DNA from: Aquabacterium sp. CECT 9606
GTDB lineage: Bacteria; Pseudomonadota; Gammaproteobacteria; Burkholderiales; Burkholderiaceae_C
Direction of reading: 5' to 3'
NCBI RefSeq assembly: GCF_918741295.1
Contig: NZ_CAKKNB010000001.1
Location: 310,001 to 374,000 of the forward strand
DNA length: 64,000 nt
Shown: one piece after another, positions 1-25,262 of the stretch
Position numbering within the stretch: the first letter of the stretch is position 1
Layout of the letters: each line of letters starts with the position of its first letter
Translations under genes and position numbers: made by a program
Notes under the pieces: generated by a model
The model's database searches: none
Told to the model about the DNA's origin: nothing
What the model saw: the letters and a program-made list of their open reading frames with translations, nothing else

Positions 1-2
1 AG

Positions 3-92
3 CTGCGGTCACGGCAAATGCAGCGAGTTAAAACTTTGGTCAAATACGGGAAGTCGCGCATCAAAAAATGGGAGCAGCTCGGATGTCCATGA
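3..92 (+). CDS. Possible 3' end of a gene upstream of hsdR (partial)
   Basis: A frame open from the window edge runs 29 codons to a TGA whose bases overlap an hsdR ATG at position 89 as ATGA. The peptide is rich in lysine and arginine (it contains [14 protein letters not shown]). The ATGA overlap is the usual arrangement for coupled genes in restriction operons, so this may be the tail of the preceding gene. The fragment is too short to name, and it could be a chance open frame. Confidence 0.3.
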
Positions 93-3000: not shown

Positions 3001-3292
3001 CCTAGGCTTGAGCGACGACGAGGTGAAGTTCTACGATGCGCTGATCATCAACGAATCAGCGGTGCGAGAGCTGAGCGACGAGACGCTGAAGAAGATCGCT
3101 CACGAACTGACCGAAAGCCTGCGGCAAAACATCAGCGTGGACTGGGCGCAGCGAGAGAGCGTGCGGGCCAAGCTGAGGCTGATGGTCAAGCGGATTTTGC
3201 GCAAGTACAAGTACCCGCCCGATTTGGCTGATGCTGCGGTGGAGTTGGTACTGGAGCAGGCCGAAACGATTGGTGATGAGTGGGTGCAGTGA
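83..3292 (+). CDS. hsdR: Type I restriction enzyme, R (HsdR) subunit
   Basis: This is the motor and nuclease subunit of a type I restriction-modification complex: it translocates DNA with ATP and cuts unmodified DNA. The N-terminal nuclease is visible as PD at residues 141-142, ELK at 156-158 and a QxxxY motif shortly after. The helicase part has Walker A GSGKS near residue 300, a DEAH box in [16 protein letters not shown]-type motif FVAFTGTP and a late [10 protein letters not shown] motif. At 1069 aa it is full length for the family. I chose ATG 83 because GGAG lies 8 nt upstream; ATG 89 is possible through an ATGA overlap with an upstream frame. hsdM and hsdS are not in the window and should lie to the left. 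Its stop codon directly abuts the stop codon of the convergent gene, with no gap. Confidence 0.95.
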
Positions 3293-4150: not shown

Positions 4151-4300
4151 AGGGGCGTTGGGTCAGATTTATTCGCCAGGGGGCAAGACAAATGTGGACA
4201 GATTTCCGTTGTCGACCGCGTGGACGTATGAGCGGGCGGTTATTAGCATGGGCGATCAAGATTAGTTGATTCAAAAATCCCAAGCGAACCACTGAACGTC

Positions 4301-4726
4301 ATGGCCGATCTGTTGCAATTTCCCGCCGCTTTGAGGCAGGCCAGAAGCAAGCGCGGGTTGATGCAAAAGACCGTCGCCCAAAGACTGAACGTCGACCCCA
4401 CCATGCTGTGTTCGGCAGAGAAAGGTGCGCGAGGCCCACTTGATGCTCAGATCTTGGGGAAACTTGCAGCGCTCTTGAAGCTCGCGCCAGATGAGGCGAA
4501 AGACCTGAACTGGGCTGCTCATCATGACCGTGCCATTGGGGCGCTGCGGCGTCATGGCTTCACTGACATTGAGTTGCTTGGCATCTCGGTCATCCTGTCA
4601 GCTCTACACGGGCTCCACGGTGATCAGCAGGCTGGACTGATCGACTATTGCCGCCAGGTTGGCCAGAGCGCACGCTTGGTGAATAGCCTGACCTCGAACA
4701 ATCAACGCGCGGAGGACCTCACATGA
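4301..4726 (+). CDS. XRE-family helix-turn-helix regulator
   Basis: This is a 141-aa protein with a Cro/CI-type helix-turn-helix in the first 70 residues: FPAALRQARSKRGLMQKTVA, then the second and recognition helices around RLNVDPTMLCSAEKGARGP. The C-terminal half is a helical tail of unknown role. It probably binds DNA as a dimer and may control itself or the divergent 285-aa gene, since they share a 150-bp intergenic region. The ATG at 4301 is the only good start. A hairpin sits 12 nt after its stop. It could belong to the neighbouring island or to an older accessory segment. Confidence 0.75.
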   Translation: MADLLQFPAALRQARSKRGLMQKTVAQRLNVDPTMLCSAEKGARGPLDAQILGKLAALLKLAPDEAKDLNWAAHHDRAIGALRRHGFTDIELLGISVILSALHGLHGDQQAGLIDYCRQVGQSARLVNSLTSNNQRAEDLT

Positions 4727-4730
4727 CATA

Positions 4731-4761
4731 AAAGAAAACGGCGGGCTGTTGAGGCCCGCCG
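4731..4761 (-). terminator. Hairpin with T-run on the minus strand
   Basis: A perfect 8-bp stem (CGGCGGGC at 4739-4746, GCCCGCCG at 4754-4761) encloses a 7-nt loop. On the minus strand it is followed by TTTTCTTT, so it would work as an intrinsic terminator for leftward transcription. No minus-strand gene ends here now. It may be left over from the sequence present before the island inserted, or may insulate the island from its neighbour. Confidence 0.6.
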
Positions 4762-4958
4762 CATCCGCTCGGTCAAAGACAGAGACTGTTGACGCTTCTA
4801 TTGTCTTTCTGATCGAGCGACCCGTCAACCGGGGCGCAGCCTTTCCCATTGTGGCAAGTCATCCGACTTGGCATCGCGTCGCCAATTATTTGGCGGGCGT
4901 GATGGGGCCGCTCGTCCATCTACTTACGCGCGGTTTTGTGCGCGGTCGGAAAGAAACA

Positions 4959-6149
4959 ATGAAATATCAAGTTCGCCTGCTCGTGATGAGCAGCGGTGAG
5001 CGGTTGCCCGTGCTCTGCACATCTGATGGGCAACCACTGATTGGACCCATGGTGTACGTCCTCACAGAGCTTCGTGCCCAAGGGCGTTCGAGTGCAACCA
5101 TTCGCCATTCGCTCGAGGCCATCATGGTCCTGCAGATGGCGCTGGATCAACAGCAGATCGACCTGGATGCGCGGATGCGTGGTGGCAAGTATCTGCAAAT
5201 CCATGAGGTTGACCTAATCGCACGTACTGCGAACCAACCGATTCGAGCGTTTGAACGTGAGCCGGCAAAGCAGCTCAGTCGAGCATCTGCCGCCAATCGG
5301 CTTCACTACATCCTTCAGTACCTGCGCTGGCAGGCCTTTGGATATCTGATGCAGTTGGATGCCCATGAAAATGGCTATCTGGCCCTGCGCGACCGCGTTG
5401 AGAAAGCCTGCAATGCCTTGAAGGCGCGCTCGCCATGTCTCAGCATCCGTAGCCAGAGCGACCAGAGACAAGGGCTGAGCGATAAATCTCTTGCAGTTTT
5501 GCAAACGGTGGTGGACGGTGTCCAACAGGTTTGGAAAAACGAGCATGCGCAAGCTCGGAACCAACTGATGCTGAGGTGGCTTCTTGAGCTGGGAATTCGA
5601 CGAGGGGAGTTGCTGGGGGTCCGTCTATGCGACATCAATTTTCAAAGGCTTGAAGTATTTATTGCTCGCCAAGCCGATGCAAAGGAAGATCCTCGCGCAA
5701 AGCAGCCGCTCGCAAAGACGCATGAGCGAGTGCTCCCGCTGAGCGATGAGCTTGCCGACCTGACTCACAACTACGTGATGTGGTGTCGTGCAAATCAGGG
5801 CTTGTCTCGGCGCCATGAGTACCTGTTTGTTTCTGGCGGGACAGGCAAGCCTTTGTCTCTGGCTGGAGCAAACAAGCTGTTTATCGCGCTGCGGGAGGCA
5901 GGCCTCAATCTGCCGGATGACCTGACGGCGCACATCCTGCGCCATAGTTGGAACGACCGATTCAGCAAGGAAATGAAGCGAGCAGGTGTGAGCCCCGAGC
6001 ACGAACAGAAGATGCGCTCTGTGCTGATGGGGTGGTCGCCAACCTCGGAGACCGCCGCAACCTACACCAGGCGATACGTTCGCGAGCGGGCCAGCGGAGC
6101 GATGAAGCTCATGCAAGGTCGGCTGCACATAGACGGAGGTAACCCGTGA
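4959..6149 (+). CDS. ginA: Tyrosine recombinase, first of three (GinA-like)
   Basis: This 396-aa tyrosine recombinase is the first gene of the mobility operon. The catalytic domain shows RRGELLGVRL (first Arg), HILRHSWNDRF (HxxR) and MGWSPTSETAATYTRRY (Trp and nucleophile Tyr). The frame stays open upstream to 4749, but ATG 4959 has GGAAAG seven to twelve bases before it and gives the expected length, so the longer form is unlikely. Its TGA overlaps the GTG of the next gene as GTGA. By family it should act with the next two recombinases and the small fourth protein in excision and integration of the island. Confidence 0.85.
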   Translation: MKYQVRLLVMSSGERLPVLCTSDGQPLIGPMVYVLTELRAQGRSSATIRHSLEAIMVLQMALDQQQIDLDARMRGGKYLQIHEVDLIARTANQPIRAFEREPAKQLSRASAANRLHYILQYLRWQAFGYLMQLDAHENGYLALRDRVEKACNALKARSPCLSIRSQSDQRQGLSDKSLAVLQTVVDGVQQVWKNEHAQARNQLMLRWLLELGIRRGELLGVRLCDINFQRLEVFIARQADAKEDPRAKQPLAKTHERVLPLSDELADLTHNYVMWCRANQGLSRRHEYLFVSGGTGKPLSLAGANKLFIALREAGLNLPDDLTAHILRHSWNDRFSKEMKRAGVSPEHEQKMRSVLMGWSPTSETAATYTRRYVRERASGAMKLMQGRLHIDGGNP

Positions 6150-7666
6150 ACGCGCTTGCACTTCATGATCTGCCTTCCGTTGCCTTCACCAGGAGCGGCG
6201 TCAAGTTCTGCCCGGCTGATGAGGTCTGGTCCTTCCAAGATGCAGTCACCCCCGGGCATTTTGACTTCCTTGTATTGAGAGACAGGGTGATGCCGGCGCC
6301 AATGCAGGGCCTTAAAGCTGCATTGACGTGGTTGCTACAGAACAGGGCCGTAGCAACGGCGCTCAATGCTTACTCGTGCTTCAAGCACTTTCTTGTTTCG
6401 ACCGGCCGAACCAAAGATCAGCCGATCAGGGAGATTACTCAGTTTGACTTGATCAGCTACCGATCGATGCTGACCAAACAACAAGGCAACCGCCTGCTGA
6501 TGCTGGCGGTGTTGTTGAAGAAGTGGCACAGCTTGGGCTTACGTGGGGTCAGCGATGATGCCGTCGGCTTCTTGAAAGGCCTACGTATGAAGAAGCCTGA
6601 CGTTGGTGTGCCAGTGTTGACGATGTGTCCGAAGCAGGGGCCTCTCACGCAGTTGGAGGATGAGGCGTTTCAGGACGGGCTGAACACGGCATTCGCACGA
6701 GGCGAGTTGAGTGAGGTGGCGTTCTTTGCTTGTTGGATCACGAGGGCCTTAGGTCAGCGACCATGCCAGACGGCGGCTTTGAAGGTCTGTGATCTGGTCG
6801 TTGAAGCTCGCCCTGACGGAAGCCACGAATACCTCCTGAAGGTTCCCCGAGCCAAGCAGAGGGATGCGATCCATCCGCGAAGTAGTTTGAAGGTTCGCCC
6901 CTTGATTCAGCAGCTGGGTGCCCCACTGCATGCCTACGCACGGCGGGTTCAGCGGATCTTGGAAGGGCGACTTGGCGACGCCTCTCAAGCCCCCATGTTT
7001 CCAGACCGCAACGATGCGCTGACAGACGGCCCGTTTTCGGGACATATGACCGCCAGACAAATGGGCATCCTTATCAAGGCTGCAAGCCGAAAGATCAAAG
7101 CCCATTCAGAACGAACGGGACGCCCCTTGCACGTTACGCCCTCTCGGCTTCGGCGGACAGTGGGCACACGTGCAGCCGAGGAGGGGCATGGCGAACTGGT
7201 TGTCGCAGAGATCCTCGATCACACCAACGTGGCCAGTGCCAGGTACTACGTTCAAGCCGTGCCTTCGATAGTCGCCCGTATTGATGCCGCGATGGCGCAC
7301 AGCATGGCGCCCTTGGCCCGTGCGTTTCAAGGTATGTCCCCCAAACGCTATGACTCGGAGAAGCACGACTCATCGAGTCTCATTCTGGATCTACGTGTTG
7401 ATCAAAGCGGTCAGTCGATGGGGCAGTGCAAAGGTACTGGTTCATGTACTTTTCTGGCCCCAGTCAGCTGCTACACATGCAGAAGCTTTAGGCCTTGGCT
7501 GGATGGTCCGCACCAGTCAGTACTTGACGACCTGATCGCCCGGCGCGATCAGCAGTTGAGTCGCAATGGTTTGCGGATGGCTTCAGTCAATGACCGGACC
7601 TTGGTGGCTGTGGCCGAGGTCATCCAAATCTGCGCTTCAGCGCGAGGGGAGATCAGCCATGGGTGA
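6146..7666 (+). CDS. ginB: Tyrosine recombinase, second of three (GinB-like)
   Basis: This 506-aa recombinase starts at GTG 6146, overlapping the previous stop by 4 nt. The core has a first Arg in TRALGQRPCQTAALKV, then PSRLRRTVGTRAAEEG, LDHTNVASARYYV with the His and nucleophile Tyr. A cysteine cluster follows near the C terminus (GQCKGTGSC, then SCYTC), likely a zinc-binding tail. Such tails are seen in the large recombinases of multi-recombinase elements. It overlaps the start of the third gene by 8 nt, so the genes are translated as one coupled operon. Confidence 0.85.
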   Translation: MNALALHDLPSVAFTRSGVKFCPADEVWSFQDAVTPGHFDFLVLRDRVMPAPMQGLKAALTWLLQNRAVATALNAYSCFKHFLVSTGRTKDQPIREITQFDLISYRSMLTKQQGNRLLMLAVLLKKWHSLGLRGVSDDAVGFLKGLRMKKPDVGVPVLTMCPKQGPLTQLEDEAFQDGLNTAFARGELSEVAFFACWITRALGQRPCQTAALKVCDLVVEARPDGSHEYLLKVPRAKQRDAIHPRSSLKVRPLIQQLGAPLHAYARRVQRILEGRLGDASQAPMFPDRNDALTDGPFSGHMTARQMGILIKAASRKIKAHSERTGRPLHVTPSRLRRTVGTRAAEEGHGELVVAEILDHTNVASARYYVQAVPSIVARIDAAMAHSMAPLARAFQGMSPKRYDSEKHDSSSLILDLRVDQSGQSMGQCKGTGSCTFLAPVSCYTCRSFRPWLDGPHQSVLDDLIARRDQQLSRNGLRMASVNDRTLVAVAEVIQICASARGEISHG

Positions 7667-9704
7667 TGTGCTCTACTTTTCTCCAGTGCATGGCTGGTCC
7701 GCTCAGGAGAATCTACGCCAGTTCCTCCAAGTTTGTCGTTCAGAACTTTCAGTGTTCGGTGCGGGTTTGGACTTTGAAAAGGACCGTTGGGATATCACCA
7801 GTCATGTCAATCGGAAAAGCCATCGAGGGCCAGTGTCGCTCTTGTTCACGGAGTTGCCACCCATTGGTCGCCGCAAATCCGCTCCGATGCAGGAGCCATT
7901 CAAGTCCTTTGCCAAATCAGCGATTCGATATCTTCAAGGACTCCGGCCTTCAAGGAGCTTGGCTACCCGGTTGGTAGGACTCCGGGCACTTCATCAAGCT
8001 CTGATGGAGGACGGTTGCGTGGCAGATCCGACTCGGCTGATACCGTTTCACTTCAATCGAGCCGTGGATCTCATCAAAGAGCGCGTGGCTGAGACGAGCG
8101 CGTACCAGTACTGCGGACAACTCGAAGTCATCAATAAAATGATGGTGGACTCTGGGCTTCTAGCTGCTCCGATGAGCTGGAGATCCTCTGTCAAGCGTGT
8201 TGAACGACTAGGCAAAGTTGGTCCCGAATTTGATAGACGCCGGTTGGAGCGCTTACCCAGCGCTGCAGCCCTGTCGGCGCTCGCCTCGATTTTCACTACT
8301 GCGACCGAGCCGTCAGACGTCATGGTCACTTCCGTGATGGCGATTCTTTGTTCCGCCCCAGAAAGAATTAATGAGGTGCTGCGGTTGACTGTCGATTCAG
8401 AGGTGACGCATCAAGATCCCACTACAGGGGAAGCGATCTACGGTCTCAGATGGTATCCATCAAAGGGCGCGAAGCCGCAAATCAAGTGGACAGTGAAGTC
8501 CATGACGGATGTCGCAAAACTTGCGTTTCGCAAAATGTTCAAAATCGGTGCGTCAGCCAGGGAGCTCGCTGCTTGGTATCAAGCGAATCCCACAAAGATC
8601 TTTTTGTCCGCGGATCTGGAGCATCTGCGGAGCCATCAGTGGTTGACGATGGGGGAACTGGCGGAGGTTTTGTTCGCCGGCAGTGTTGAGCGCAGAGTTG
8701 TTGATCTTTGGTGCCATGACAACAAGGTTCATGGCACGGGCAAGGGGCAGAGCCGTCGTGTTCGCTTTGAGGAGATCGAGCGCGTGGTTCTGGGCTTTCT
8801 GCCAACTGGATTTCCAATTTCAGACGTTGATCATGGTTTGCAGTACTCGCAGTTGCTCTTCCTCGTTCGCCGGAATGAGCTACACAAATCCAGGGCCACC
8901 TATCGATGCATGTTCATGCGACCTTGCACAGACGACATCAACAATCGTCTGTCTGCTGCTTCCCATAAGTCCCAGTCCATCTTCGAGAAATATGGCTTCA
9001 GGGAGCCAGATGGCACATCCATCCGTGCGACCACTCACCAGATTCGCCATTACCTGAACACCCTGGCTCAGCGAGGGGGGCTAAGCCAGCTGGATATCGC
9101 GCTTTGGTCGGGTAGAGCCAGGGTGTCAGAGAACAACGTCTACGACCACGTCTCCAACCGTGACGTACTGGCGATGCTCAGAGCTGCTGTGGGTGAACCG
9201 AACCAGACCAAAGGACCACTGGCACGGCTTCACGGGATCAAGATATTAAAGCGGAGTGAGTTCGCCCGGCTTAAGGTCCCAACTGCACACACTACAGATT
9301 TGGGGTACTGCATCCATGATTATTCGATGCTGCCTTGTCAGGCGCATCAAGATTGCTTGAACTGCGATGAGCACATTTGCGTGAAAGGCGAGCCTGAAAA
9401 AGAGGAGAGGCTCAAGCTTCTCATAGGAGAGACCAAGCACCTTCTGGCCAAGGCAGAAGAGGACCAAAGCCTCCAGCTGGCTGGTGTGCCTCGGTGGGTT
9501 GATCATCAGAAGCAAACCTTGGCAAGAGCCGAGGAGCTTCAGAGGATCATGGATGACCCTGCAGTGCCTGCTGGTGCGGTGATCAGTATCAGTACGCCGG
9601 TGATGCCGTCACGCCTGGCACAAGCCGTTCAGGAGCGGCAGAAACTGATTGAGCTTACGCCCACAACTGGCTCTGCAAAGGCGAATCGTAGGAGGCGAGC
9701 ATGA
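7659..9704 (+). CDS. ginC: Tyrosine recombinase, third of three (GinC-like)
   Basis: This is a 681-aa protein, the largest recombinase of the operon. I chose ATG 7659 because GAGGGGAGA precedes it and it overlaps the previous gene by only 8 nt; an in-frame start at 7566 would overlap far more. The catalytic region shows a first Arg in SAPERINEVLRL, HQIRHYLNTLAQ (HxxR), then LDIALWSGRARVSENNVYDH, with Trp in place of the second His and the Tyr nucleophile. A cysteine-rich stretch follows (CIHDYSMLPCQAHQDC, then NCDEHIC), probably a zinc-binding element. The C terminus is helical. It overlaps the fourth gene by ATGA. Confidence 0.85.
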   Translation: MGDVLYFSPVHGWSAQENLRQFLQVCRSELSVFGAGLDFEKDRWDITSHVNRKSHRGPVSLLFTELPPIGRRKSAPMQEPFKSFAKSAIRYLQGLRPSRSLATRLVGLRALHQALMEDGCVADPTRLIPFHFNRAVDLIKERVAETSAYQYCGQLEVINKMMVDSGLLAAPMSWRSSVKRVERLGKVGPEFDRRRLERLPSAAALSALASIFTTATEPSDVMVTSVMAILCSAPERINEVLRLTVDSEVTHQDPTTGEAIYGLRWYPSKGAKPQIKWTVKSMTDVAKLAFRKMFKIGASARELAAWYQANPTKIFLSADLEHLRSHQWLTMGELAEVLFAGSVERRVVDLWCHDNKVHGTGKGQSRRVRFEEIERVVLGFLPTGFPISDVDHGLQYSQLLFLVRRNELHKSRATYRCMFMRPCTDDINNRLSAASHKSQSIFEKYGFREPDGTSIRATTHQIRHYLNTLAQRGGLSQLDIALWSGRARVSENNVYDHVSNRDVLAMLRAAVGEPNQTKGPLARLHGIKILKRSEFARLKVPTAHTTDLGYCIHDYSMLPCQAHQDCLNCDEHICVKGEPEKEERLKLLIGETKHLLAKAEEDQSLQLAGVPRWVDHQKQTLARAEELQRIMDDPAVPAGAVISISTPVMPSRLAQAVQERQKLIELTPTTGSAKANRRRRA

Positions 9705-10171
9705 TCAGGCAGCGCAGCAGGAACTTGACTCCTGAAGATGTCGAGTTGATCGTGAGCCTGCTTGACGGATGGGGTGGAGCCCTGACCTGGAAATGGCTGA
9801 TCGACAATGTGGAACGGCGGCTGTTCTTTCGCTACACCCGCCAAGCCCTGCATGCCCATCAGCGCATTCAAGACGCGTTCAAGCTTTGCAAGGAACGTCT
9901 GGCCCGCGCGCCTCGCAAGCCGGGAGAAAAGCACGTGTCGCCGGAGATGCGCGTCCTGATGGAGCGCCTTGCCAGACGAGATGCAGAGGTTGAGCGGCTG
10001 AAGGCGGAGAACCAGCGGCTGATGGAGCAATTCGTTGTCTGGCTGTACAACGCGCAGATCAAGGCTGTCAGCCTAGCCGACCTTAAGAGGCCGCTGCCGA
10101 GAGTGGATAGGGGCCAGACAAAAAGCGAGTTGCGGGTCGTGGGCAGCGGACGGCGACCGTCAAGGACGTGA
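9701..10171 (+). CDS. ginD: Small coiled-coil protein of the mobility operon (GinD-like)
   Basis: This 156-aa protein starts in an ATGA overlap with the third recombinase. The N-terminal part is basic and helical (LTPEDVELIVSLLDGWGG, LTWKWLIDNVERRLFFRYTR). Residues about 85-115 form a coiled coil (LMERLARRDAEVERLKAENQ). It carries no catalytic motif. In GInt islands the fourth gene encodes a small accessory protein required with the three recombinases, probably for DNA binding or synapsis. Tn554 tnpC holds a similar place in another element type. The assignment rests on position, size and coiled coil. Confidence 0.7.
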   Translation: MIRQRSRNLTPEDVELIVSLLDGWGGALTWKWLIDNVERRLFFRYTRQALHAHQRIQDAFKLCKERLARAPRKPGEKHVSPEMRVLMERLARRDAEVERLKAENQRLMEQFVVWLYNAQIKAVSLADLKRPLPRVDRGQTKSELRVVGSGRRPSRT

Positions 10172-10643
10172 AGTTGAGAGCCCGGAGCGATTCAGTTGGC
10201 CTTTTGCTTAATGCTGTGGTGCTTGCCTACTGGCAGTGAATCTTGTCGCGGGCAATCTCTGGAGCTAACGTCGGCAGGAGCCATGTCGCGGTCAGGAGGG
10301 TGCGTTTGACACGTCAAACTTCTTTGGTTTAACTTATGAGAAACGCAGTGAGTGGCAACTTGGCAGCGGTTGCGGTCAGTCGCGCCATTGCGCCTAGCTT
10401 ACGCTCAGTGTCACCAAGCGGTCGTTAGGCTTCGCGACCTCGGGACGCCCTGAGATCAGTTGCACGAGGGACGATCAGACAGTCCGCCCCGGGGCACCAC
10501 CATATCGTGACGCCACAGGACTACTCTGCCCATACAGCGATCACGGCCAGATTGGCAAGGCGTTGAGCGAAGCTGGCAGAGCAGCGGCTCAGACCTATTT
10601 CGTCCGGGCGGGCGCCGAAGAACCAAGGGTTTGGTCGGCTCGG
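10172..10643. other. Gap between the mobility operon and the CBASS operon
   Basis: I see no convincing gene in this 472-bp stretch, into which the recombinase operon and the CBASS operon both converge. It contains a tight inverted repeat, GTTTGAC (10304-10310) and GTCAAAC (10313-10319), two bases apart. A further pair, GCCTAGC (10392-10398) and GTTAGGC (10424-10430), faces each other. Open frames here overlap the CBASS gene antisense and look like shadows. It is the likely seam where cargo was joined to the mobility module. Confidence 0.5.
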
Positions 10644-11810
10644 CTACTTCAGCCGCAACGCCGGCCTCCACTCCGGCGCCTGCCACTCCCACACGTGCAC
10701 CTCCTCAAACGTCTTCGGGAGAAGCAGACGGCCAATCTCGATGCTCGCCGACAGCGGTGTGGCCGGATGAATGTGCACGACACGGGCGCCGGCAGCGAAG
10801 AGATGCTGCAGGAATGCGTTGAAGCTCGTGCGGAACTGCTGCAGGTGCGCCTCTTTACGGATGATGCCGCGTCCAGGGGTTACTGCCGCGAACTCGACCA
10901 CAGCGCGTCCAACGGGGTGCTGTGCTCTGCCTGAGAGGCTCACCACTGCGGAAACTTCCCTTGGAAGCGTCTTCGGAACGTCGAAGATGTACGAAGGCTC
11001 CGGGCAGTCGTCACGAGCATCCCAAAGCCACCTTTCGCCCGGCAGGTCCAGGACGGCTGCCAGCGTCTTGTCGCCGACGAGCGCGCCGAGCTTCATCAGC
11101 ATTGGAATAGGGGCGAATCCGGCGATGGTCAGATGCCCGGCGCCGCCGCGGGTGGTTAGCGCGGGAAGCACTCGCTGCTCGTACTGCTGCGTGAGCGCAC
11201 GCTGGGCGTTCCTCCAGAAGTCCGGGTCGTTGTCCTGGAGGTGGAAGTTGCTCTGGTCGATGTGGACAGCGGTCGATGTCGGAAACAGCTTGAAGTTGCT
11301 GTTCGTAAGCATCGCGTAGTGGATGTCCCGAACCTCGACTACGGGCACGTGGGCGCCAACGGGAAACGACATGATGAGCGGCGTGCTTTCGACTACACCG
11401 GTGGCGGAGTAGATGTGTTCGATGCGCACTTCATGCTCGCGCTTCATTGCACGCAGCTGTTCGGCCGTGAACTCGTTGCTCCGGCCATCGCGGTCGATGC
11501 GGGCATGGCAGTCAAAGCACGCGAGCATCAGGTTGCTCGGGTCAGCGGCGAGCCTCTCAGACTCGCCAGGGACGCCGCGAGCACCTGCGGGGCTGTCGGC
11601 AATGATGTGGGCGTACTCGCCCACCGTGCATTTGGCCTTGGTCAGGAAATCCCGGTCCACCGGCTTGCAGCAGCCCCTGAACTCGCATCGACCGGCCGCA
11701 GCAATCCACAGGTCACGGCGAATCGACGTCGGGATGTAGGCGCGCTCAACTGTCCTGGCCGGGGCCTTCGACTTAGCGCCGCCACTGCTAGGTGCTTTCC
11801 TTGCGGGCAT
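10644..11810 (-). CDS. cap5: CBASS effector Cap5, HNH endonuclease with SAVED domain
   Basis: This 388-aa effector should degrade DNA when its C-terminal SAVED domain binds the cyclic oligonucleotide made by the CD-NTase. The HNH module shows RCEFRGCC (Cys42, Cys47, Cys48), EYAHII (His68), NLMLACFDCHARID (Asn93, Cys98, Cys101, His102). These are the catalytic His/Asn/His and a zinc site. The remaining 220 residues from about 165 fit a SAVED sensor, with VVSLSGR and HIHPATPLSASIEIGRLLLP near the end. Length is normal for Cap5. GGAG precedes the ATG, and the start lies inside the end of cap3 (23-nt overlap). It is the last gene of the operon. The family's DNA cleavage causes abortive infection. 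Confidence 0.9.
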   Translation of the reverse strand: MPARKAPSSGGAKSKAPARTVERAYIPTSIRRDLWIAAAGRCEFRGCCKPVDRDFLTKAKCTVGEYAHIIADSPAGARGVPGESERLAADPSNLMLACFDCHARIDRDGRSNEFTAEQLRAMKREHEVRIEHIYSATGVVESTPLIMSFPVGAHVPVVEVRDIHYAMLTNSNFKLFPTSTAVHIDQSNFHLQDNDPDFWRNAQRALTQQYEQRVLPALTTRGGAGHLTIAGFAPIPMLMKLGALVGDKTLAAVLDLPGERWLWDARDDCPEPSYIFDVPKTLPREVSAVVSLSGRAQHPVGRAVVEFAAVTPGRGIIRKEAHLQQFRTSFNAFLQHLFAAGARVVHIHPATPLSASIEIGRLLLPKTFEEVHVWEWQAPEWRPALRLK

Positions 11811-12285
11811 TTTTTTTCTCCAGCTTCAACTCTCGCAGCGCGCCACGACGACTCAGCGTCCAGACACGAATGCAGTGCGTACCGACGATTGGGAAGAACA
11901 GGCGGTCCCCCTCGTAGGTGTCGCCTGCGACGGCATGCTGCCAGTCGTTCCGGTCAACACAAGACGGCGTGGGGTCATGCTCGGGATGCGTATGCCAAAG
12001 GCCAAGGTAGGCGGAGGTGCTGTGCTCCTTCAGCCACCGCTGGCGAGCCACCTGCTCGTGCATGCGCGACCGGAAGAAATTGAACCGGCTGCGGCGGTCA
12101 GTGTCTTGGGGCGTTGAGACCTCGTCGACGACGACGTCGTGCGAGTCGAGCAGGTGCCGTCCCATCATCACGCCGCCAGCCTCCCTATCCCACCACCGGT
12201 GCTGCGCGAACGCCTGCATCTGCTTGAGGGCGTGCTCTACGATGATGAGGCGCTGCTTGGGCGTCACGCGATAGACCAGGTTCAC
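11788..12285 (-). CDS. cap3: CBASS Cap3, JAMM-type isopeptidase
   Basis: This 165-aa JAB/MPN metalloprotease should remove the CD-NTase from its conjugate, reversing Cap2. The zinc motif is complete: Glu35 in REAGGVMMG, then His98 and His100 in LWHTHP, seven residues, Ser108 and Asp111 (HxHx7SxxD). The start is GTG at 12285, which overlaps the cap2 stop as GTGA and has GGAGGA just upstream. A longer frame exists but runs inside cap2 and is not needed for the domain. The stop lies 23 nt inside cap5. Confidence 0.92.
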   Translation of the reverse strand: MNLVYRVTPKQRLIIVEHALKQMQAFAQHRWWDREAGGVMMGRHLLDSHDVVVDEVSTPQDTDRRSRFNFFRSRMHEQVARQRWLKEHSTSAYLGLWHTHPEHDPTPSCVDRNDWQHAVAGDTYEGDRLFFPIVGTHCIRVWTLSRRGALRELKLEKKNARKEST

Positions 12286-14021
12286 GGCGACGGCTCCTCC
12301 GGTGTGCGACAGTGGCGGCACCGGCGGCCGAACACCATGTGAGTGGCTTCCTCGAACGGCGTCGTCCGTGCCGCCTGGAACCACGGCGTCGTCCGCAAGC
12401 CCTGCTTGGCGGCAGCCGCTCCCTCACCGACCCAGAATCGGTAAGAGGGACTATGCACCTCGTCTCCAGCGGGCACCGAGGTCAACGCTGAAAGCAGATG
12501 CTCGGCAGCCAAGAGGCCAGTCTTTCGCGCTTGGATGGGCCCGAACGGCACGAACGCCCCGGCGCACCCCGTTAGATTGCGAGTAACCGGCTGGTTCGGC
12601 TCGAGAAACGAAGTGCGAGATGCTTGCGAGGGAAGGCCCTCGTCATCCCGATAGGCGCAGTCGAGGCAGCCCTCACCCTTGGTCCACATCAGCACAGAGT
12701 GACCTCCGAGGTCCATGGTCTCCAGCCACGTGAAGACCACCGGGATGTTGTGCCGCCGGCCCTTGAGCACTCGCGAGAACGAACGCTCTACCGAGGGGGC
12801 GCCGAACGCGAATACGACTCCGTCGTAGCGGCGAAGGTCGGCAGTCTTCCACCACTCCTGCGCGGTCGAATTGACCGGGGTAATGCTCAGGCCGGGGTAT
12901 CGACGTTCCAGCGCGAACTGGAGTCCGAAGGGCTTCGGGGTATCGATGTAGAGCGGCTCGAGCAGGTGGCGGAAGACGTTGTCCGCCGAGTACTCGTCGT
13001 AGTCGACCACCGTGAGCTGTCCAACGCCTGCCGCGGCTAACGTATCGACGACAACGCTGCCGACGGCCCCTGCTCCGAGCACGGCCACGTGCTTACCGAA
13101 CAGCTCCAGCGAGGCGCCGCCGCGCTCGCGCATGTAATGGGGCGCATGCCGGCGCATGGTCAGCGGTGTGACTGGCGCACTCTTGTCAATGCCGCCGGCG
13201 CGGGCGCCAAACACTGCGGCGACAAGCGAAAGGCCGCCGGGTTGGCGCGGCACCGAGACCAGGAGTGCCAGCTGCTTGGGCGAATTCTTCGACGGACCGA
13301 GGAGCTGATCCCAGAGCTCCAACTGCTCAGGCGTTAGCCGATGGTGAACCGCCTCGATGAAGGCCGGAGTCAGCTTGTCGGGCTTCGCAGGGGGCAACTC
13401 CAGCGCATCCAGGTGCACGTACAGCGCCCGTTGTGCGGCAAGCTTCTCCTGTCGTACATCCCAGGGCTGGTCGGCTTCGGGTTCGACGAAGTACCAGTTC
13501 GGCGGCTTCAGCCTGGAATTGACGAACCCCTTGACCATCCGCGACTTCCCGTCAACCTCGAGGTAGGCGCGCGAGCGTAGCGAACCGGGCAGGTGCAGCC
13601 AGTATCCCTCGAGTTCATTGAAGAACTCCGCATAACCGGTGGCTGCATCGGCAGCAGACTTTTCGAGCAAGTCGTAGGCCTTCAGAGCGGCGTGAGCCAC
13701 GATTTCCGCAGGGCGGCTCGGGTCCAGCGACAGCCCTTGGCCATCGTCGATACACACGGTCCCTGAATAGCTGACGTGCGCGAGCGGTGAGGTCGGAGAC
13801 TGCGTCGCGACCCACGGGAGGCGCAGGCGCGCCTCCTCGCAGTCGATGTAGAGGGGCCACTTGCGCGTCGCGCCCGTGAGCTCAACGGTCAGGATGGTTG
13901 GCCTCGGTTCCTCCATCCGCACGACTTCAATGCCGCGCAGGGAGCAGGCGGACTTCACCGCGTCGAACGCGGCATCGACCTTCACGGGCCCGCCAACCTC
14001 GGCGGCGACCTTGTCCGTCAA
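12282..14021 (-). CDS. cap2: CBASS Cap2, fused E2-E1 conjugating enzyme
   Basis: This is a 579-aa ubiquitin-transfer-like enzyme. By family it activates the C terminus of the CD-NTase with ATP and conjugates it to a target, which raises nucleotide synthesis. The N-terminal E2-like part carries the predicted catalytic Cys90 in SYSGTVCIDDG. The E1 part has the ATP motif HVAVLGAGAVGS (316-321), VVDYDEYSADN, and predicted active Cys486 in NLTGCAGAF. Cys452/Cys455 and Cys568/Cys571 can form the zinc site. The likely start is TTG 14021, overlapping the CD-NTase stop as TTGA; there is no strong ribosome site, so it probably depends on coupling. Domain content is what separates type II CBASS from other types. 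Confidence 0.92.
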   Translation of the reverse strand: MTDKVAAEVGGPVKVDAAFDAVKSACSLRGIEVVRMEEPRPTILTVELTGATRKWPLYIDCEEARLRLPWVATQSPTSPLAHVSYSGTVCIDDGQGLSLDPSRPAEIVAHAALKAYDLLEKSAADAATGYAEFFNELEGYWLHLPGSLRSRAYLEVDGKSRMVKGFVNSRLKPPNWYFVEPEADQPWDVRQEKLAAQRALYVHLDALELPPAKPDKLTPAFIEAVHHRLTPEQLELWDQLLGPSKNSPKQLALLVSVPRQPGGLSLVAAVFGARAGGIDKSAPVTPLTMRRHAPHYMRERGGASLELFGKHVAVLGAGAVGSVVVDTLAAAGVGQLTVVDYDEYSADNVFRHLLEPLYIDTPKPFGLQFALERRYPGLSITPVNSTAQEWWKTADLRRYDGVVFAFGAPSVERSFSRVLKGRRHNIPVVFTWLETMDLGGHSVLMWTKGEGCLDCAYRDDEGLPSQASRTSFLEPNQPVTRNLTGCAGAFVPFGPIQARKTGLLAAEHLLSALTSVPAGDEVHSPSYRFWVGEGAAAAKQGLRTTPWFQAARTTPFEEATHMVFGRRCRHCRTPEEPSP

Positions 14022-15031
14022 GCGGAGTTGCCGGTGCTGATGACGGCGGGCGCGACCATCTTGGCCATCTCAGCCTTCTCAGGCACCTTGAAGTCGTCGC
14101 CGAACTGCTTCTTCAGCACTTTGCACGCGTCCTCAGGCAGGTCTTCGTCGTAGGCCTCCTGCAGGGCGTCGCGCAGTGACTCGAGCCGCTCCTTGAAGTC
14201 CTTCATCTGCGCAGCGGTGCGCTTCGCCATCAAGTCGGTGTACGGCTGGACCGGCAGCGGCACCTGCAGACGCTCGTGCCACCCACCCTCGTCGCGGTAC
14301 TCGCTGGTGAAGTTGTCGAGCATCGCCTGGACCCAGTCGAGCATCGCCAGCAGGTCGACGGGTTTGCCGGACGTGCTGAAGTTCGGCTTGAACCACTTCA
14401 ACGCCGCCACCGTCAGCGCGATGCTGAGCGGCGCGCCTGAGCCCGAGAACTGCCAATGGCGCCAGCGCTTCAGGTAGCGAATGCAACGGCGGTACTGCGC
14501 GAGTTCTTCCGAGTCGTCGAACGCGCTGCACACCAGCTTGGTCAGACCCTTCGGTTCGGACGCTTCCCAGATGCGGTGCTCCGGGGCGGAGTTCTCCTTA
14601 CCCTTGGCGAGGTAGAGAGTCCCGCTGGCGTCCTGGCTGTAGATGGCCAGGTCGACGTGATAAGCCGTCTTGCCACCGCTGATGTAGTTGACAGTCACGC
14701 ACGGCCGGCGAATCTCGACCGTGCGGAAGTTCGTGTCTACCGCATCGCGTACCTTCTTCTTGAGCACGACCGGGTCGGGGTACTTGTCTTGGTTGCAGTC
14801 GAAGATGAGGCCGACGTCGATGTCGAAGTTGCCGTCCAGGGGCACCACGCCCGTGTGCATCGAGTAACTGCCCTGGTTGAAGTTGGTGAAGGCCGGTACG
14901 TCGTCGCCGAGATTGGCCCTCAGCGCCTTGATGATGGTTTCGCGCTTCTCGCGAAGCGTGGCCTTCTCGTCGTCGTCATCGAAGCAGATGGCCTTGTGAA
15001 AGTCCTCGAACTGCTTTTGCACTGCAGGCAT
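14018..15031 (-). CDS. CBASS CD-NTase (cyclic oligonucleotide synthase)
   Basis: This is the phage-sensing enzyme that makes a cyclic di- or trinucleotide second messenger. The nucleotidyltransferase core has NQGSYS (Gly54-Ser55), FDIDVGLIFD (Asp70 and Asp72) and AYHVDLAIYS (Asp127), the three metal-binding acids. I used ATG 15031 (337 aa), where AGGGA lies 7 nt upstream and homologous proteins usually begin. The frame stays open to GTG 15130 and would add a hydrophobic stretch. The last residues are GNSA; a terminal Gly or Ala is what Cap2 attaches in known type II systems. I do not assign the clade or the nucleotide product. It is first in a four-gene overlapping operon. Confidence 0.92.
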   Translation of the reverse strand: MPAVQKQFEDFHKAICFDDDDEKATLREKRETIIKALRANLGDDVPAFTNFNQGSYSMHTGVVPLDGNFDIDVGLIFDCNQDKYPDPVVLKKKVRDAVDTNFRTVEIRRPCVTVNYISGGKTAYHVDLAIYSQDASGTLYLAKGKENSAPEHRIWEASEPKGLTKLVCSAFDDSEELAQYRRCIRYLKRWRHWQFSGSGAPLSIALTVAALKWFKPNFSTSGKPVDLLAMLDWVQAMLDNFTSEYRDEGGWHERLQVPLPVQPYTDLMAKRTAAQMKDFKERLESLRDALQEAYDEDLPEDACKVLKKQFGDDFKVPEKAEMAKMVAPAVISTGNSA

Positions 15032-15529
15032 CTTCTTGTCCCTGTTGTCAAAGAGCCAGGCCAAGGCCGCCGCGAAGAGTCCGAGACCTAGAAGTGGGTG
15101 CATGAGTGTGAAGTGAGTTCGCGGCTGCACGCATTCTAGCGTGGCTACACACTATATCTGTGGTGCCGGTCAAGCCCAGGCGCTACCTATAGTGTGCTGC
15201 GGCGCAACACGAGCGGACCGGAGAGATGCCCGATATCTTAGCGTTCAGGCAAGAGCTCGCGGGCTAGTGCCCTCCGACACTGCCATCTCCAAGTCGAGCT
15301 GTTCCTACCCGCATTTGGCATTCCCACCATTCACGCCGTCGGCCTGAACGGCTTTGCGCGCCGAGGGAGGATTTCGTCGCCCGTCGTGAAGCTCCATACC
15401 TGGGGCCTGCGCGTCAACATGCAGTCCAGGCGGCTCGATAGTCCGCTATCGACTAGGCTGGTCCCTCGACGAAGGAACCTTGAGTGACCGCAACCAGCCT
15501 GATGGTGAAGTCCGCCGGGGTTCCGCCGC
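15032..15529. other. CBASS upstream region
   Basis: The first 99 bases may encode an N-terminal extension of the CD-NTase. The rest holds no convincing gene. It should carry the CBASS promoter, reading leftward. An imperfect inverted repeat lies here (listed separately). No regulator gene such as capW or capH is next to it. Confidence 0.5.
15144..15200. promoter_or_regulatory. Inverted repeat upstream of the CBASS operon
   Basis: GCTACACACTATA (15144-15156) faces TATAGTGTGCTGC (15188-15200); 11 of 13 positions match as an inverted repeat, including an unbroken CACACTATA arm of nine bases. The arms are 31 nt apart. It lies just upstream of the possible GTG start of the CD-NTase and could be an operator or part of a promoter. 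No binding protein is evident. Confidence 0.4.
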
Positions 15530-15970
15530 TCATACCTTGGCGAGGAAGGCCGCCGCATCACCCGCTTCACACTTCCAGTCTGCGAAGACCCCGACGAGAT
15601 TGCATTCCACGCAGTGGCAAGCGATGTAGTACCAGCGCACGTCATGTGTGCCCTCGTACACGGAGACGCCGGACATCAGCTCGAACACCTCGTTCTCGCA
15701 CACGCACTCGTGCGCCTCGGGAACGGCTTCTTCGACGTAGTCAGCGCTGTCGCCCATCAGGTGTTCCTGCCCGCAGTCGGTGCAGGTGCGGATTGCCACG
15801 CCGGCTTCTTCATCGGTTTGCAGCGCGAAGGTCCGGCACCCGCAATCGCATTTGGACGCGGCAAACCGGACGGCTTCATGGCGATTCGCAGCGCTGTAGC
15901 TGCGCAGCTCGGCTTGGGTGTCGCCAGACGTCGTCCCGTACCAGAACTCCCCTTTCTTCGTCAGTGCCAT
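15530..15970 (-). CDS. Uncharacterised zinc-ribbon-like protein
   Basis: This 146-aa protein carries several cysteine pairs: CDCGC near residue 39, CTDCG near 65, CVCEN near 90, and CHCVEC, WKC further on, an arrangement suggesting one or two zinc ribbons. Many acidic residues lie between them. I chose ATG 15970 because GGAG lies 8 nt upstream; the frame stays open to 16099 but without support. It has the same orientation as the CBASS operon and sits about 400-500 bp ahead of it. No function can be assigned. It might be an accessory gene of the island or an unrelated passenger. Confidence 0.6.
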   Translation of the reverse strand: MALTKKGEFWYGTTSGDTQAELRSYSAANRHEAVRFAASKCDCGCRTFALQTDEEAGVAIRTCTDCGQEHLMGDSADYVEEAVPEAHECVCENEVFELMSGVSVYEGTHDVRWYYIACHCVECNLVGVFADWKCEAGDAAAFLAKV

Positions 15971-16468
15971 TGATGCTGCTCCATTCTTCAAGGTGGGCTT
16001 CCCGGCAGGCCTGACGCCAAGCTCGCCCCTATCATCTGTATTTTGCCTGGAGGTCGGCGAATCGTCGTAAAGGGCCCGGATCGGGGTGGTCGCCGACAAG
16101 GGCTGCAGACATCCTTAAATGCCGAGTCTTGTGGATTGCAACCATCCGGCGGCCTCCGATTCGAATGGCTCACATCAGCCCGGAGCCGAGACGCATTGGA
16201 GACCGGCAGGTGTGCAGCGGTTGCTGCCCATGGGGGGATAGGCCGGGTATGCACGGTACCGGTCCTTTTGCGGCCATCCGCCGAAGTCCGTCGCGGTAGC
16301 GCAAATGAGTGGTGCAAGCGGAAATTGACTGAGACAAAGCCGCATGTGTCTAACAAGATGACCGGTTGCTCGCGAAGTCCGTCCGGGTCGGCTCCGATCA
16401 CTCTCAAGAGGCGGGGCCGAAGGCGCCTTGACTAACTGGGGTGCTCGTCATTTCGAGGCACCGCTTCG
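15971..16468. other. Intergenic stretch in the island cargo
   Basis: I see no gene here. Frames on both strands are short and lack coding character or ribosome sites. The stretch separates the zinc-ribbon gene from the nuclease-like gene, both on the minus strand. It may hold a promoter for the former. Confidence 0.4.
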
Positions 16469-17029
16469 CTACCACTCAGCCTGTCGTCCATGCAGATGGA
16501 TCTTCTTGCCTGATTTGCCAGCGATAGAGCAAGGAGCGCCTTCTTTCAAGACCTCGTCCAGGCCGACGATGTAGATGTCCCGACCCTGACTCGACTTCGG
16601 GATCACAATGAAAATGACCAGAACGCGAGTTGCGTCAGCGTTATTTTCCGTCATCCACTTTTCTGTAACGCAATACTTCTTTATCTCTGCGTCGGTTATG
16701 CAGAAGGCACGATCATCCGAGATATCACGGTGCTTTGCATCAAACAGTAGAACGATCTCTTGTCCTCCGTGAATCCATTTGGCAATGAAGTCCGGCCGCT
16801 TGCCTCCGCGCGTTTGTAGTTCCTCGTTGAATTGCCGCGCGGACTGGTCAACACGTAGATGCTCAATCTCACGAGAAACTAACCAAGCCTCGGCATAGCT
16901 CTCCCCTTGCTCGCCGTCAGCGACCCACTCTTCTTGACGCCTTTTATCGAGCTCTTTTTTTTTCTCGAATTCCACTCGGAAATGCTGAAAGACAGCAGCA
17001 TTCCGCTTCGGACCTTGTGATTGCACCAT
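16469..17029 (-). CDS. Putative PD-(D/E)XK-fold nuclease-like protein
   Basis: This 186-aa protein has a highly charged helical N terminus, then the motif RPDFIAKW followed eleven residues later by LLFDAKHRD. An Asp followed by (D/E)xK, here DAK, is the active-site pattern of the PD-(D/E)XK nuclease fold. A later strand VLVIFIVIPKSSQGRDIYIVG fits the fold core. The first ATG at 17035 sits only 2 nt from AGGAGG, so the second ATG at 17029, with 8 nt spacing, is the likely start. Codon use is more AT-rich than the CBASS genes, which suggests separate acquisition. A defence role is plausible from context but is not shown. Confidence 0.6.
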   Translation of the reverse strand: MVQSQGPKRNAAVFQHFRVEFEKKKELDKRRQEEWVADGEQGESYAEAWLVSREIEHLRVDQSARQFNEELQTRGGKRPDFIAKWIHGGQEIVLLFDAKHRDISDDRAFCITDAEIKKYCVTEKWMTENNADATRVLVIFIVIPKSSQGRDIYIVGLDEVLKEGAPCSIAGKSGKKIHLHGRQAEW

Positions 17030-17306
17030 CGTCATGCCCTCCTATTAATCGCAAGACGCGACTACCCGGCCGATATCTCACTGTCGATGTGATCTCAATT
17101 GCTGGAGAAGCGAGGGACTCTAGCATTGGTGCCTTTCAGCGCGTGTCGGGTTTCGGCCAGAAGCGGAAGTCTACGAGAGGCTGATTCGTTGCACCGGTTA
17201 GCGACTACAGCGGATTCCGGCCTGCCTCCGAGTCAGTGGCATGGAAAAAGGGGCGGGCAGCCGAGCAACGCTGCGGTAGGATTCAAACAAACTCGCCAAA
17301 TATCAA

Positions 17307-18380
17307 GTGTTTGTTCTCCTCGACTCCAATATCTATTGCGGCGACTGGTTTTTGAGGGGCGCACCGTTCCGCTACCTCTGCCACTTCCTGAACAACGAGG
17401 GCCACACGTTGCTTGTTCCACGTGTGGTTCTCGACGAAGTCGCGAACGTACGGGCTCGAAAATTCTCGGAGGAGGCAGCAGTTGCGGGGAAAGCAATTGC
17501 GGCTCTTCACCGACTAAATGGCGACGACACAAAGGCAGCAAGCACCCTTCCAGCAGCCAAGGAATACGAGCTGCTTTCGCTGTTGAAGGAGTCGATTGAG
17601 AGCGTCGTAGTCTTGGAGTACAACACTCTGCCGCACGACGAGATCTTTCGGCGTGCGCTGAAGGCGCAGCGTCCTTTCCGAGAGGGGGAAAAGGGCTATC
17701 GCGACACGCTGATCTGGATGTCGCTCCTTGCGTTCCTGAGGAAGCAGACCCGCCCTGAAGAGGTGGCGTTCATCACAACGAACAAGAACGACTTCTTCTC
17801 TCAATCTGAAGACGCTGAATTTCACCCGGACCTGCGCGAAGATATGGCGGGAGCGAACGTTGCGCCCTTCAAGTCGTTGGCCGCTTTTGTGGACCGGCAC
17901 GTGGACAAAGACCTCCACGGTATCGACCGCGTGATGTTGCGACCACAGATTGAAAGCTTTCTCGAGGACCAAACCAGCGAGATGCTTCTGGGAGGCGAGC
18001 CGCAGAAATTGCTCTGGCGGAACCTTGCACCTGGCGTGCGGTGGCCCGACGACCTTCGAGGCTGTGGAACTGAAATTATGGAGGGCGTGGAAGATCTGGA
18101 GTTCGACGCAATCGAGGCCCTTGACGACGACATTGTGTATTTGGCATGCCGCTACGATCTAAGAATCGTGATTGTGACGTTCATGATCTCGCGTGCGTTC
18201 TTCGAAGCTAACCGTCAAACCCTTGAAGAGGTATCGAAATTCTGGGAGACAGATGTCGACAACCAAGTTGTGACGCTGAAATCTTCTGGCCGCGTGTACG
18301 TGACTGCAAGCTTCACCTACGACAAACGCACCGCGCTATTCTCAGGCTTTAGCTACGCCGACGTTGCTTTCCGCACATAG
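17307..18380 (+). CDS. PIN-domain protein (DUF4935-like)
   Basis: This 357-aa protein has an N-terminal PIN-like RNase fold: FVLLDSNIY with the first acid, VVLDEV with the next, KGYRDTLIWMSLLAFL with a conserved Asp, and FITTNKNDFF with the late Asp. These give the acidic cluster that binds metal in PIN nucleases. A C-terminal region from about residue 220, ending in a run of predicted beta strands (VVTLKSSGRVYVTASFTY), is of unknown function. The start is GTG 17307 with a poor ribosome site; the domain would not tolerate a later start. It is the last gene before the island's right end, divergent from the nuclease-like gene. It may be a toxin-like or defence RNase. Confidence 0.7.
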   Translation: MFVLLDSNIYCGDWFLRGAPFRYLCHFLNNEGHTLLVPRVVLDEVANVRARKFSEEAAVAGKAIAALHRLNGDDTKAASTLPAAKEYELLSLLKESIESVVVLEYNTLPHDEIFRRALKAQRPFREGEKGYRDTLIWMSLLAFLRKQTRPEEVAFITTNKNDFFSQSEDAEFHPDLREDMAGANVAPFKSLAAFVDRHVDKDLHGIDRVMLRPQIESFLEDQTSEMLLGGEPQKLLWRNLAPGVRWPDDLRGCGTEIMEGVEDLEFDAIEALDDDIVYLACRYDLRIVIVTFMISRAFFEANRQTLEEVSKFWETDVDNQVVTLKSSGRVYVTASFTYDKRTALFSGFSYADVAFRT

Positions 18381-18606
18381 GTCGTTGAGCGTTCGCTTTC
18401 CGGCTTTAGGTTAGCGCCGATGTTCGGGTGTCAAATCTCATGCGACAGCAACCAGCCTGAAGCGGATATCCATTCATGCCTGCAGGCTGATTGATCCCAG
18501 TAGGTGGTTGTCGAATTGGTGCTGCACAGTGAGGCTTGTTTACAAGTCTTGAAAAGTAGCTTGTAGCCCGGAGAACACGCCAACCTCAAAGAACAACGTC
18601 AACAAG
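18381..18606. other. Right end of the island
   Basis: This 226-bp stretch has no gene and is somewhat richer in A and T than the flanking core. It carries TCAAAGA (18586-18592) and CGTCAACA (18597-18604), related in inverted orientation to sequence at the left end. The island seems to stop directly before the ssb terminator, so the insertion did not disturb ssb. Confidence 0.45.
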
Positions 18607-18638
18607 AAAAAAGCCCCAAGTGACAATCACTTAGGGCT
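18607..18638 (-). terminator. Intrinsic terminator of ssb
   Basis: Arms 18627-18638 and 18612-18623 form a 12-bp stem around a three-base loop on the minus strand, with one G-U pair that works only in the minus-strand RNA. A run of six T follows. It lies about 30 nt after the ssb stop. Confidence 0.85.
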
Positions 18639-18668
18639 ACTTGTTTACCGTTCAGGCAAAGGTAAATC

Positions 18669-19205
18669 CTAGAACGGAATATCGTCATCCATGTCATCAA
18701 ACCCAGTCGACGACTTTTGTGGCGCAGGGCGCGAAGCAGGCGCCGGACGTGCCGCAGGACGGCTAGGCGCGGCCGAAGGCGCATCCTGGCTGAAGTCATC
18801 GCCCCCACCTTGCTGGCCGCCACCGGCTTGGCCACCGCCATAACCGCCGCCACTGCGGCCACCACCACCGTCGCGCCCACCCAGCAATTGCATCTGGTCG
18901 GCCACGATTTCGGTCGTGTAGGTGTCCTTGCCGTCTTTGTCTTGCCACTTGCGGGTCTTCAGGCGGCCTTCCACGTACACGGGACTGCCTTTTTTCAGGT
19001 ATTCACCCGCGATTTCGGCCAGACGGTCGTAGAACACCACGCGGTGCCATTCGGTTTCTTCAACCTTGTCGCCGCTGGTCTTGTCTTTCCAGTTGCGCGT
19101 GGTGGCAACCGACACATTGCACATGGCCGCGCCACTCGGGGCGTAGCGTACTTCCGGGTCGCGACCCAGGTTGCCGATGATGATGACTTTGTTGATGGAG
19201 GCCAT
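18669..19205 (-). CDS. ssb: Single-stranded DNA-binding protein
   Basis: This 178-aa SSB binds exposed single-stranded DNA during replication, repair and recombination. The OB fold covers about residues 1-110 ([54 protein letters not shown]). A glycine, glutamine and proline-rich linker follows, ending in the acidic tip DDMDDDIPF that recruits partner proteins. The ATG at 19205 gives the canonical N terminus. It has its own strong terminator, and the mobile island lies immediately beyond that. Confidence 0.97.
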
Positions 19206-25211: not shown

Positions 25212-25238
25212 TCCGCGACAAAGTTACACCAGAGTTTC

Positions 25239-25262
25239 AAGCGCCCTTCGGGGCGCTTTTTT
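25239..25262 (+). terminator. Intrinsic terminator of the first porin
   Basis: GCGCCC (25241-25246), loop TTCG, GGGCGC (25251-25256), then six T. AA and TT extend the stem. It lies 28 nt after the stop. Confidence 0.9.

Follow-up and report, generated by a model that had tools for sequence, protein, structure and literature searches.

GInts are elements built on a four-gene ginABCD operon, and all four gin genes have been reported to be needed (PMC5385486). Their insertion at the end of ssb and the presence of restriction systems among their cargo have already been published, and the described elements follow a tripartite plan with ginA at the element end (PMC5385486). In Escherichia coli, GInts are described as carriers of defence systems at several hotspots (PMC10121019). 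Here we analyse a window (the whole stretch of DNA examined, 64,000 nucleotides) from Aquabacterium sp. CECT 9606, positions 310,001 to 374,000 of contig NZ_CAKKNB010000001.1, in which an island with a gin operon adjoins ssb. This island is probably a site-specific element of the GInt kind, 28,987 bp long and inserted at the ssb stop codon, with the gin operon at its centre, cargo on both sides and a cyclic oligonucleotide-based anti-phage signalling system (CBASS) as passenger. GInts at the ssb site and GInts that carry defence systems are already known. What is new is the variant with a central gin operon, together with relatives that have the same ends but no gin genes; neither was found in the titles or abstract openings of the open-licence papers that the literature searches retrieved.

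To define the island, the ssb region was compared across 42 genomes of the genus, and stretches of 4-20 kb were taken from 20 relatives (genomes are numbered, G000 being the window genome and G001 A. commune DSM 11901). G016 has an empty site: its chromosome matches ours up to position -10317 in window numbering, continues for 5 nt and then matches from 18671 onward (the ssb region is 94% identical). Because these flanks join with only 5 nt between them, the island spans 28,987 bp (G000:C1:299684-328670, approximately -10316 to 18670 in window numbering). Positions 1..18670 of the window belong to it, while the left 10.3 kb (G000:C1:299684-310000, mostly our locus L068) precede position 1. G017 is likewise without a large insert, its matching flanks lying 30 nt apart. 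An earlier description from the letters of the window, the sequence-only reading, had rightly placed the island beside ssb and proposed to look for an empty ssb site in related strains, which G016 provides; its span of 4787-18606 (about 14 kb) is too short, since the empty site gives 29 kb.

The insertion target, ssb (18669..19205, minus strand; Pfam SSB, E 2.3e-41), has its stop codon at the junction, and the insertion is exact at this codon: TAG in the window genome versus TGA in the empty G016 site. The right end of the island supplies both the ssb stop codon and a terminator-like hairpin. In G016 ssb is followed by a terminator-like hairpin, which in the window genome is found outside the island, on its left. 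The sequence shows that the right end closes the ssb frame by itself, and because it brings both stop codon and hairpin, ssb should stay intact. Two other boundary signals were considered and rejected. Position 18536, where homology to several genomes starts, was a candidate right boundary, but the 135 bp from there to the ssb stop codon proved to be a conserved element end. Nor does a direct repeat with copies at 15486 and 18444 (79% over 28 nt) fit the empty site, and it was dropped as an attachment (att) sequence.

The conserved right end (18536..18670) consists of TTGTTTAC at 18536, GTCAACAA at 18598, the hairpin (approximately 18612-18638), a second TTGTTTAC at 18641 and ...AAATCCTAG at the ssb stop codon. 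As a pattern, the right end of about 135 bp can be written TTGTTTAC, GTCAACAA, hairpin, TTGTTTACC, closing with ...AAATCCTAG on the stop codon. Left ends have the sequence T(C/T)AGC.(G/C)GCTTGTGTTGA..., followed by TGTMAACA and, about 60 bp further, by a third motif. The att sequences themselves, CCTTAGCAGG (left) and TCCTAGAACGG (right), have only a short core in common. Used as search patterns, the left end was found in 7 and the right end in 8 of the 42 genus genomes, one copy in each and none with the reversed controls; the window genome has a single left and a single right end. The right end of G041 has diverged and was missed by the pattern. One or both ends occur in 10 of the 42 genomes.

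Among 399 genomes of the family, the right-end pattern matched in 5 (control 0) and the left-end pattern in 9 (control 2). Each of the four left ends with two mismatches or fewer (G000, G425, G094 and G275) has a right-end partner that shares its contig and strand. Left-end matches with three mismatches (five more genomes, against two for the reversed control) are near noise and were not used; a right-end match with two mismatches in G184 was set aside, its left partner not having been found. The classic GInts of G076 and G355 have ssb-side ends with the same motif-hairpin-motif layout as here, and four others that were compared share it only in part.

The gin operon comprises four overlapping open reading frames (ORFs) at 4959-10171, with overlaps of 4, 8 and 4 nt. 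The first, ginA (4959..6149, plus strand), encodes a tyrosine recombinase of 396 amino acids (aa), as judged from Pfam Phage_integrase (E 4.8e-17) and the alignment of its homologues. The second, ginB (6146..7666, plus strand), encodes a 506-aa tyrosine recombinase that has a Cys motif close to its C-terminus; it scores above the cut-off of NCBIfam NF041502 (E 4.9e-137), and Pfam and an alignment of its homologues also support the assignment. The product of ginC (7659..9704, plus strand; 681 aa) matches neither Pfam nor NCBIfam and was assigned from its fold and its invariant residues. R236, K269, H460, R463, H464 and Y495 are invariant in all 15 aligned sequences (GinC and 14 homologues), and we take these six to be the catalytic positions of the tyrosine recombinase motif. 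The predicted structure (mean pLDDT 77.6, pTM 0.52), compared with the PDB using Foldseek, retrieves Cre, XerH, XerA, an integron integrase and the Tn1549 integrase. Foldseek returned 39 chains at E <=0.001, the best at 7e-6, with TM-scores by target of 0.43-0.59 but root mean square deviations of 8-16 A. When the GinC alignment was used to search PDB sequences, two chains were retrieved, neither of them a recombinase. The invariant residues and the structural matches are the reason for counting GinC as a tyrosine recombinase.

GinC relatives are present in 16 of the 399 family genomes, including our own (E <=1e-10). From these we assembled 15 gin loci: 14 of the other 15 GinC genomes (G079, with a match of 119 residues, was left out) and G027; distant GinC matches in G003 and G027 are not counted as members of the window's subfamily. 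The fourth gene, ginD (9701..10171, plus strand; 156 aa), has homologues 3' of ginC in 13 of the 15 loci and in G001. Outside these sets, GinC had no match in phage records, matched 77 plasmid records, every one at less than 60% identity, and gave one confirmed locus in a search of genome contigs, that of A. commune.

The operon thus encodes three tyrosine recombinases and, as its fourth product, a small protein, and is of the ginABCD kind. Here the sequence-only reading stands: its three overlapping recombinases of 396, 506 and 681 residues and the 156-residue protein agree with our ORFs and overlaps, and its ginABCD assignment with the Pfam and NF041502 matches and with the residues and structure of GinC. 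Its remark that the element lacks transposase and phage genes was checked only on the main ORFs in the family libraries, and the portability of immunity that it proposed is an inference. Two genes accompany the operon upstream. A helix-turn-helix (HTH) protein (4301..4726, plus strand; Pfam HTH_31 and HTH_3) also stands beside gin in G001 (77% aa identity) and G275 (43%). The product of orfB (3293..4150, minus strand) matches no family, and its homologues adjoin the HTH gene and ginA in G001 (65%) and G275 (35%). G+C content is 0.54-0.58 across gin and 0.63-0.66 across most of the CBASS genes. A second low-G+C stretch (0.53-0.57 versus about 0.65) lies beyond ssb, at window positions 23500-27000.

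The most likely mode of movement is recombination between a circular form and the end of ssb, carried out by GinA, GinB and GinC with the help of GinD. The Gin proteins would bind the clusters of TTGTTKAC/GTMAACAA motifs present at both ends, and cleavage may occur near the short core, T(T/C)AG or CTAG. GinD would be an accessory factor, by analogy with GInts.

The likeness to GInts (PMC5385486) includes the ginABCD order with overlaps, insertion at the end of ssb with the product unchanged, variable cargo just after ginD, a short conserved 3' end and restriction cargo. The differences are that gin is central and reads towards ssb with cargo on both sides, that an HTH gene and orfB stand beside ginA, and that relatives exist with the same ends minus gin. 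The distance from the left end to the start of ginA is 15.3 kb in the window genome, and that from the end of ginD to the right end is 8.5 kb, whereas in GInts the operon delimits the 5' end, next to att. Since gin is not at an end, we class the element as a variant that works like a GInt. Among the 15 gin loci, ssb directly precedes ginA in eight (G076, G355, G069, G282, G268, G240, G397 and G102), which is the layout known from published GInts, and in six ssb was not found in the stretch fetched. The site occupied in our genome is also occupied by other gin operons in these eight loci, as it is in G001.

A central operon could also arise if two elements stood in tandem: the restriction system would belong to the left element, the right one would be more classic (orfB, HTH, ginABCD, CBASS, right end), and the inner junction would have decayed. 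Two genomes provide possible precedents. In G006 (G006:C26, L129, at about 3400 in the locus) a right-end-like stretch of 117 bp, 76-80% identical to other right ends, lies 14 nt before a left end, and this tandem-like junction indicates that elements can stack at the ssb site. In G029, hsdR is followed after 572 bp by a right end, and the genome has no GinC match. We nevertheless consider a tandem unlikely. Each end pattern occurs just once in the window genome, a search for a copy of the junction sequence inside the island found none, and G275, from another genus, has the same central layout with other left cargo and a single left end. The order in G275 is as in the window (orfB, HTH, ginABCD, cargo, ssb), with gin proteins 52-57% identical to ours. 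G275 has its left end 13.8 kb ahead of ginA, and its right end coincides with the ssb stop codon; the end motifs are as in the window, and the chromosome common to G275 and G194 stops 0.8 kb to the left of this left end. The cargo of this 32-kb element includes SspF/G/H-like genes and a methyltransferase on the left and IetAS and RADAR genes on the right. A central operon that reads towards ssb is thus found in two genera with unlike cargo on both sides, which favours a real variant over a chance tandem.

Several points weigh against the element as we describe it, the stacking at G006 among them. The distance of gin from the end conflicts with the published tripartite plan, and the central layout is known from three elements (G000, G001 and G275), two of which are colinear and from one genus. 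Imperfect direct repeats of 10-17 nt are reported to flank GInts; measured against these, the att repeats found here are weak and very short. The Gin proteins are only predicted to bind the motifs, and the accessible parts of the GInt literature report no circle, excision or transfer for a full-length GInt.

The right cargo contains a complete type II CBASS operon (10644-15130), as identified with the PADLOC models, and in this the sequence-only reading was also correct. Read on the minus strand it consists of cdn, encoding a DncV/cGAS-like CD-NTase (14018..15130; PADLOC cyclase, E 7.3e-134; Pfam DncV-like_NTFase), cap2, encoding an E1-E2 protein (12282..14021; PADLOC E1-E2, E 6.7e-301; Pfam ThiF), cap3, encoding a JAB peptidase (11788..12285; PADLOC JAB, E 4.3e-93; Pfam Prok-JAB), and an HNH-SAVED effector of the Cap5 type (10644..11810; PADLOC endonuclease effector, E 6.7e-103, and SAVED_HNH, E 7.6e-86; Pfam SAVED). 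Cyclase, Cap2, Cap3 and effector in one operon is the arrangement of known type II CBASS with HNH-SAVED, and no departure from it was seen. G001 has the same gin operon at the same site with other genes instead, and for this reason we regard the CBASS as cargo. In that genome the left side and gin are as in the window while the place of the CBASS side is taken by genes for two proteins, one of 456 aa for which no match was found and an ATPase of 992 aa that matches Ppl. The two genomes cease to be homologous 19 bp past ginD and are homologous again at the right end, so that variable cargo begins at about the ginD stop codon, as in GInts. None of the 20 ssb stretches (4-20 kb) matched the CBASS DNA. 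The sequence-only reading had named two results that would refute CBASS as cargo, the same CBASS genes at this place in related strains without the recombinases and the absence of an empty site; both checks were made and neither refuted it. Its description of gin with CBASS as cargo holds for the CBASS; it does not hold for the plan of the element, in which gin is central and a type I restriction system lies to its left.

Relatives of Cap2 were found in 3 of 398 other family genomes (three other genera; 70-91% aa identity), a set that includes only 5 others of the genus and not all 41. Around these three (20 kb each) there was no match to gin, ssb or any island protein other than those of the CBASS. 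Two of the three have all four CBASS genes. G226 has cyclase, Cap2 and Cap3 and no match to the HNH-SAVED effector of the window; on its contig (G226:C6, L150) other genes follow these three in place of the effector, which, from the gene order, looks like an effector swap.

The left cargo includes hsdM (L068:12625-14220) and hsdS (L068:14210-15511), both to the left of the window and identified by library and homologue matches, and hsdR (68..3292, plus strand; PADLOC REase_I, E 0; Pfam HSDR_N and T1RH-like_C). A DUF4917 protein (candidate PADLOC PDC-S21), an HNH protein and a 764-aa protein without a match are also found on this side. Near the left end lie genes for a 249-aa protein, the HTH gene hth2 and the 174-aa gene l1; hth2 or l1 is also found at the left ends of G001, G003, G006, G040 and G425. 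Between G000 and G001, DNA identity is 73-80% for the gin genes and 79% for ssb, and 90-92% for hsdM, hsdR and the 764-aa gene. As this exceeds the identity of gin and ssb, the left cargo moves apart from gin. Against G001, G029 and G425 the identity of hsdS is no more than 36-46%, although that of hsdM reaches 92-97%; this divergence beside a conserved hsdM indicates that hsdS has been exchanged on its own. The sequences show that cargo is exchanged between fixed borders; the mosaics suggest that left and right cargo are swapped independently of each other, with homologous recombination between the conserved core and the conserved ends as the probable route.

A further reading is that there is no element at all but a defence hotspot behind ssb that exchanges its content by homologous recombination in the flanks, with the recombinases as one passenger among others. 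The content does differ in nearly every relative fetched, and hsdMSR occurs there both with and without gin. We judge this very improbable given that the ends are conserved at fixed places, that the junction is exact at the stop codon and that the same pairs of ends occur in four genera. The remaining genes of the right cargo are a small ORF with CxxC pairs (15530..15973, minus strand) and a 188-aa ORF (16469..17035, minus strand), for neither of which a family match was found, and a gene for a PIN-domain protein (17307..18380, plus strand; Pfam PIN_12, E 7.5e-26).

Both ends lie on one contig in six genomes: G000 (29.0 kb), G275 (31.8 kb), G005 (4.0 kb), G041 (5.2 kb), G425 (11.1 kb) and G094 (2.6 kb). 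In the last four there is no gin homologue between the ends at E 0.01, no Pfam integrase between them and no GinC match anywhere in the genome (E 1e-3 in the genus search, E 1e-10 in the family search). GinC of the window's subfamily is present in 2 of the 10 end-bearing genus genomes (G000 and G001); G003 has a distant GinC-like match elsewhere, and the remaining seven have none. The cargo is often defence, though not always. G005 contains two frames, one GajA-like and one of 444 aa for which no match was found; G041 has a PDC-M48B match, and G425 has relatives of hsdM and hsdS with two further genes that, by eye, we take to be McrB- and McrC-like. The content of G094, also judged by eye, is presumably a transporter and an AsnC-like regulator.

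Two accounts of these gin-less elements may be offered. They may be satellites (one in each of four genomes from three genera, with sizes of 2.6, 4.0, 5.2 and 11.1 kb) that are moved in trans, with the complete GInts with central gin acting as helpers; we put this forward tentatively, as a possibility about which we remain rather doubtful. If it is true, defence and other genes would spread as end-flanked cassettes without a recombinase of their own. They may equally well be, or not be, dead remnants of GInts that have lost gin by deletion, an account on which we are evenly divided. The 2.6-kb element of G094 retains a fragment of 29 residues of the left-end gene hth2, as a deletion product would, and the GajA-like frame of G005 extends over no more than positions 1-252 in a profile of 600 positions. 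Set against decay, both ends are present in G005 and G041, where searches for gin, hth2 and l1 proteins at E 0.01 gave no match. In G425, from another genus, the left cargo is 86% identical to that of the window while the ssb region is 71% identical, and this higher identity of the cargo indicates transfer. In G005 and G040 the left flanks agree at 97.6% to within 6 nt of the left end, but the genes inside differ; this and the G425 cargo speak for the satellite account. G040 itself (G040:C25, L047) is not free of recombinases: the final 4.5 kb of the contig contain two diverged recombinase genes, for proteins of 392 and 497 aa, with 28-33% identity to GinA and 24-29% to GinB over most matches. 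The pair stands beside a short UmuC-like ORF, next to a right end, and the contig ends before a possible third.

Other described systems resemble the ssb island in part. The E. coli GInt/Tn6571 family shares with it a multi-integrase element, defence systems and a fixed chromosomal hotspot; host group and site differ, and the accessible part of that report does not state CBASS on a GInt or describe the ends (PMC10121019). Strand-biased circularizing integrative elements also have several recombinases and a small coiled-coil protein, are site-specific and lack transfer genes of their own; they are built on a Tfp/Srap core rather than GinC/GinD clusters and are set apart by the description in that paper, as far as it was available (PMC10214605). 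The defence islands at transfer-messenger RNA (tmRNA) genes that are moved by a jumbo phage are likewise chromosomal, with defence cargo and without transfer genes; in the part of the report available they have one integrase, use the tmRNA site and have had their transfer demonstrated (PMC12595487).

For the ssb-targeting GInt family, exact ends are now given, and the recombination operon need not sit at the end of the element. The island also shows how an element can enter an important gene harmlessly: the stop codon and the terminator-like hairpin come with it. The elements that have the same ends and no gin genes make the mobilisation of defence cassettes in trans directly testable.

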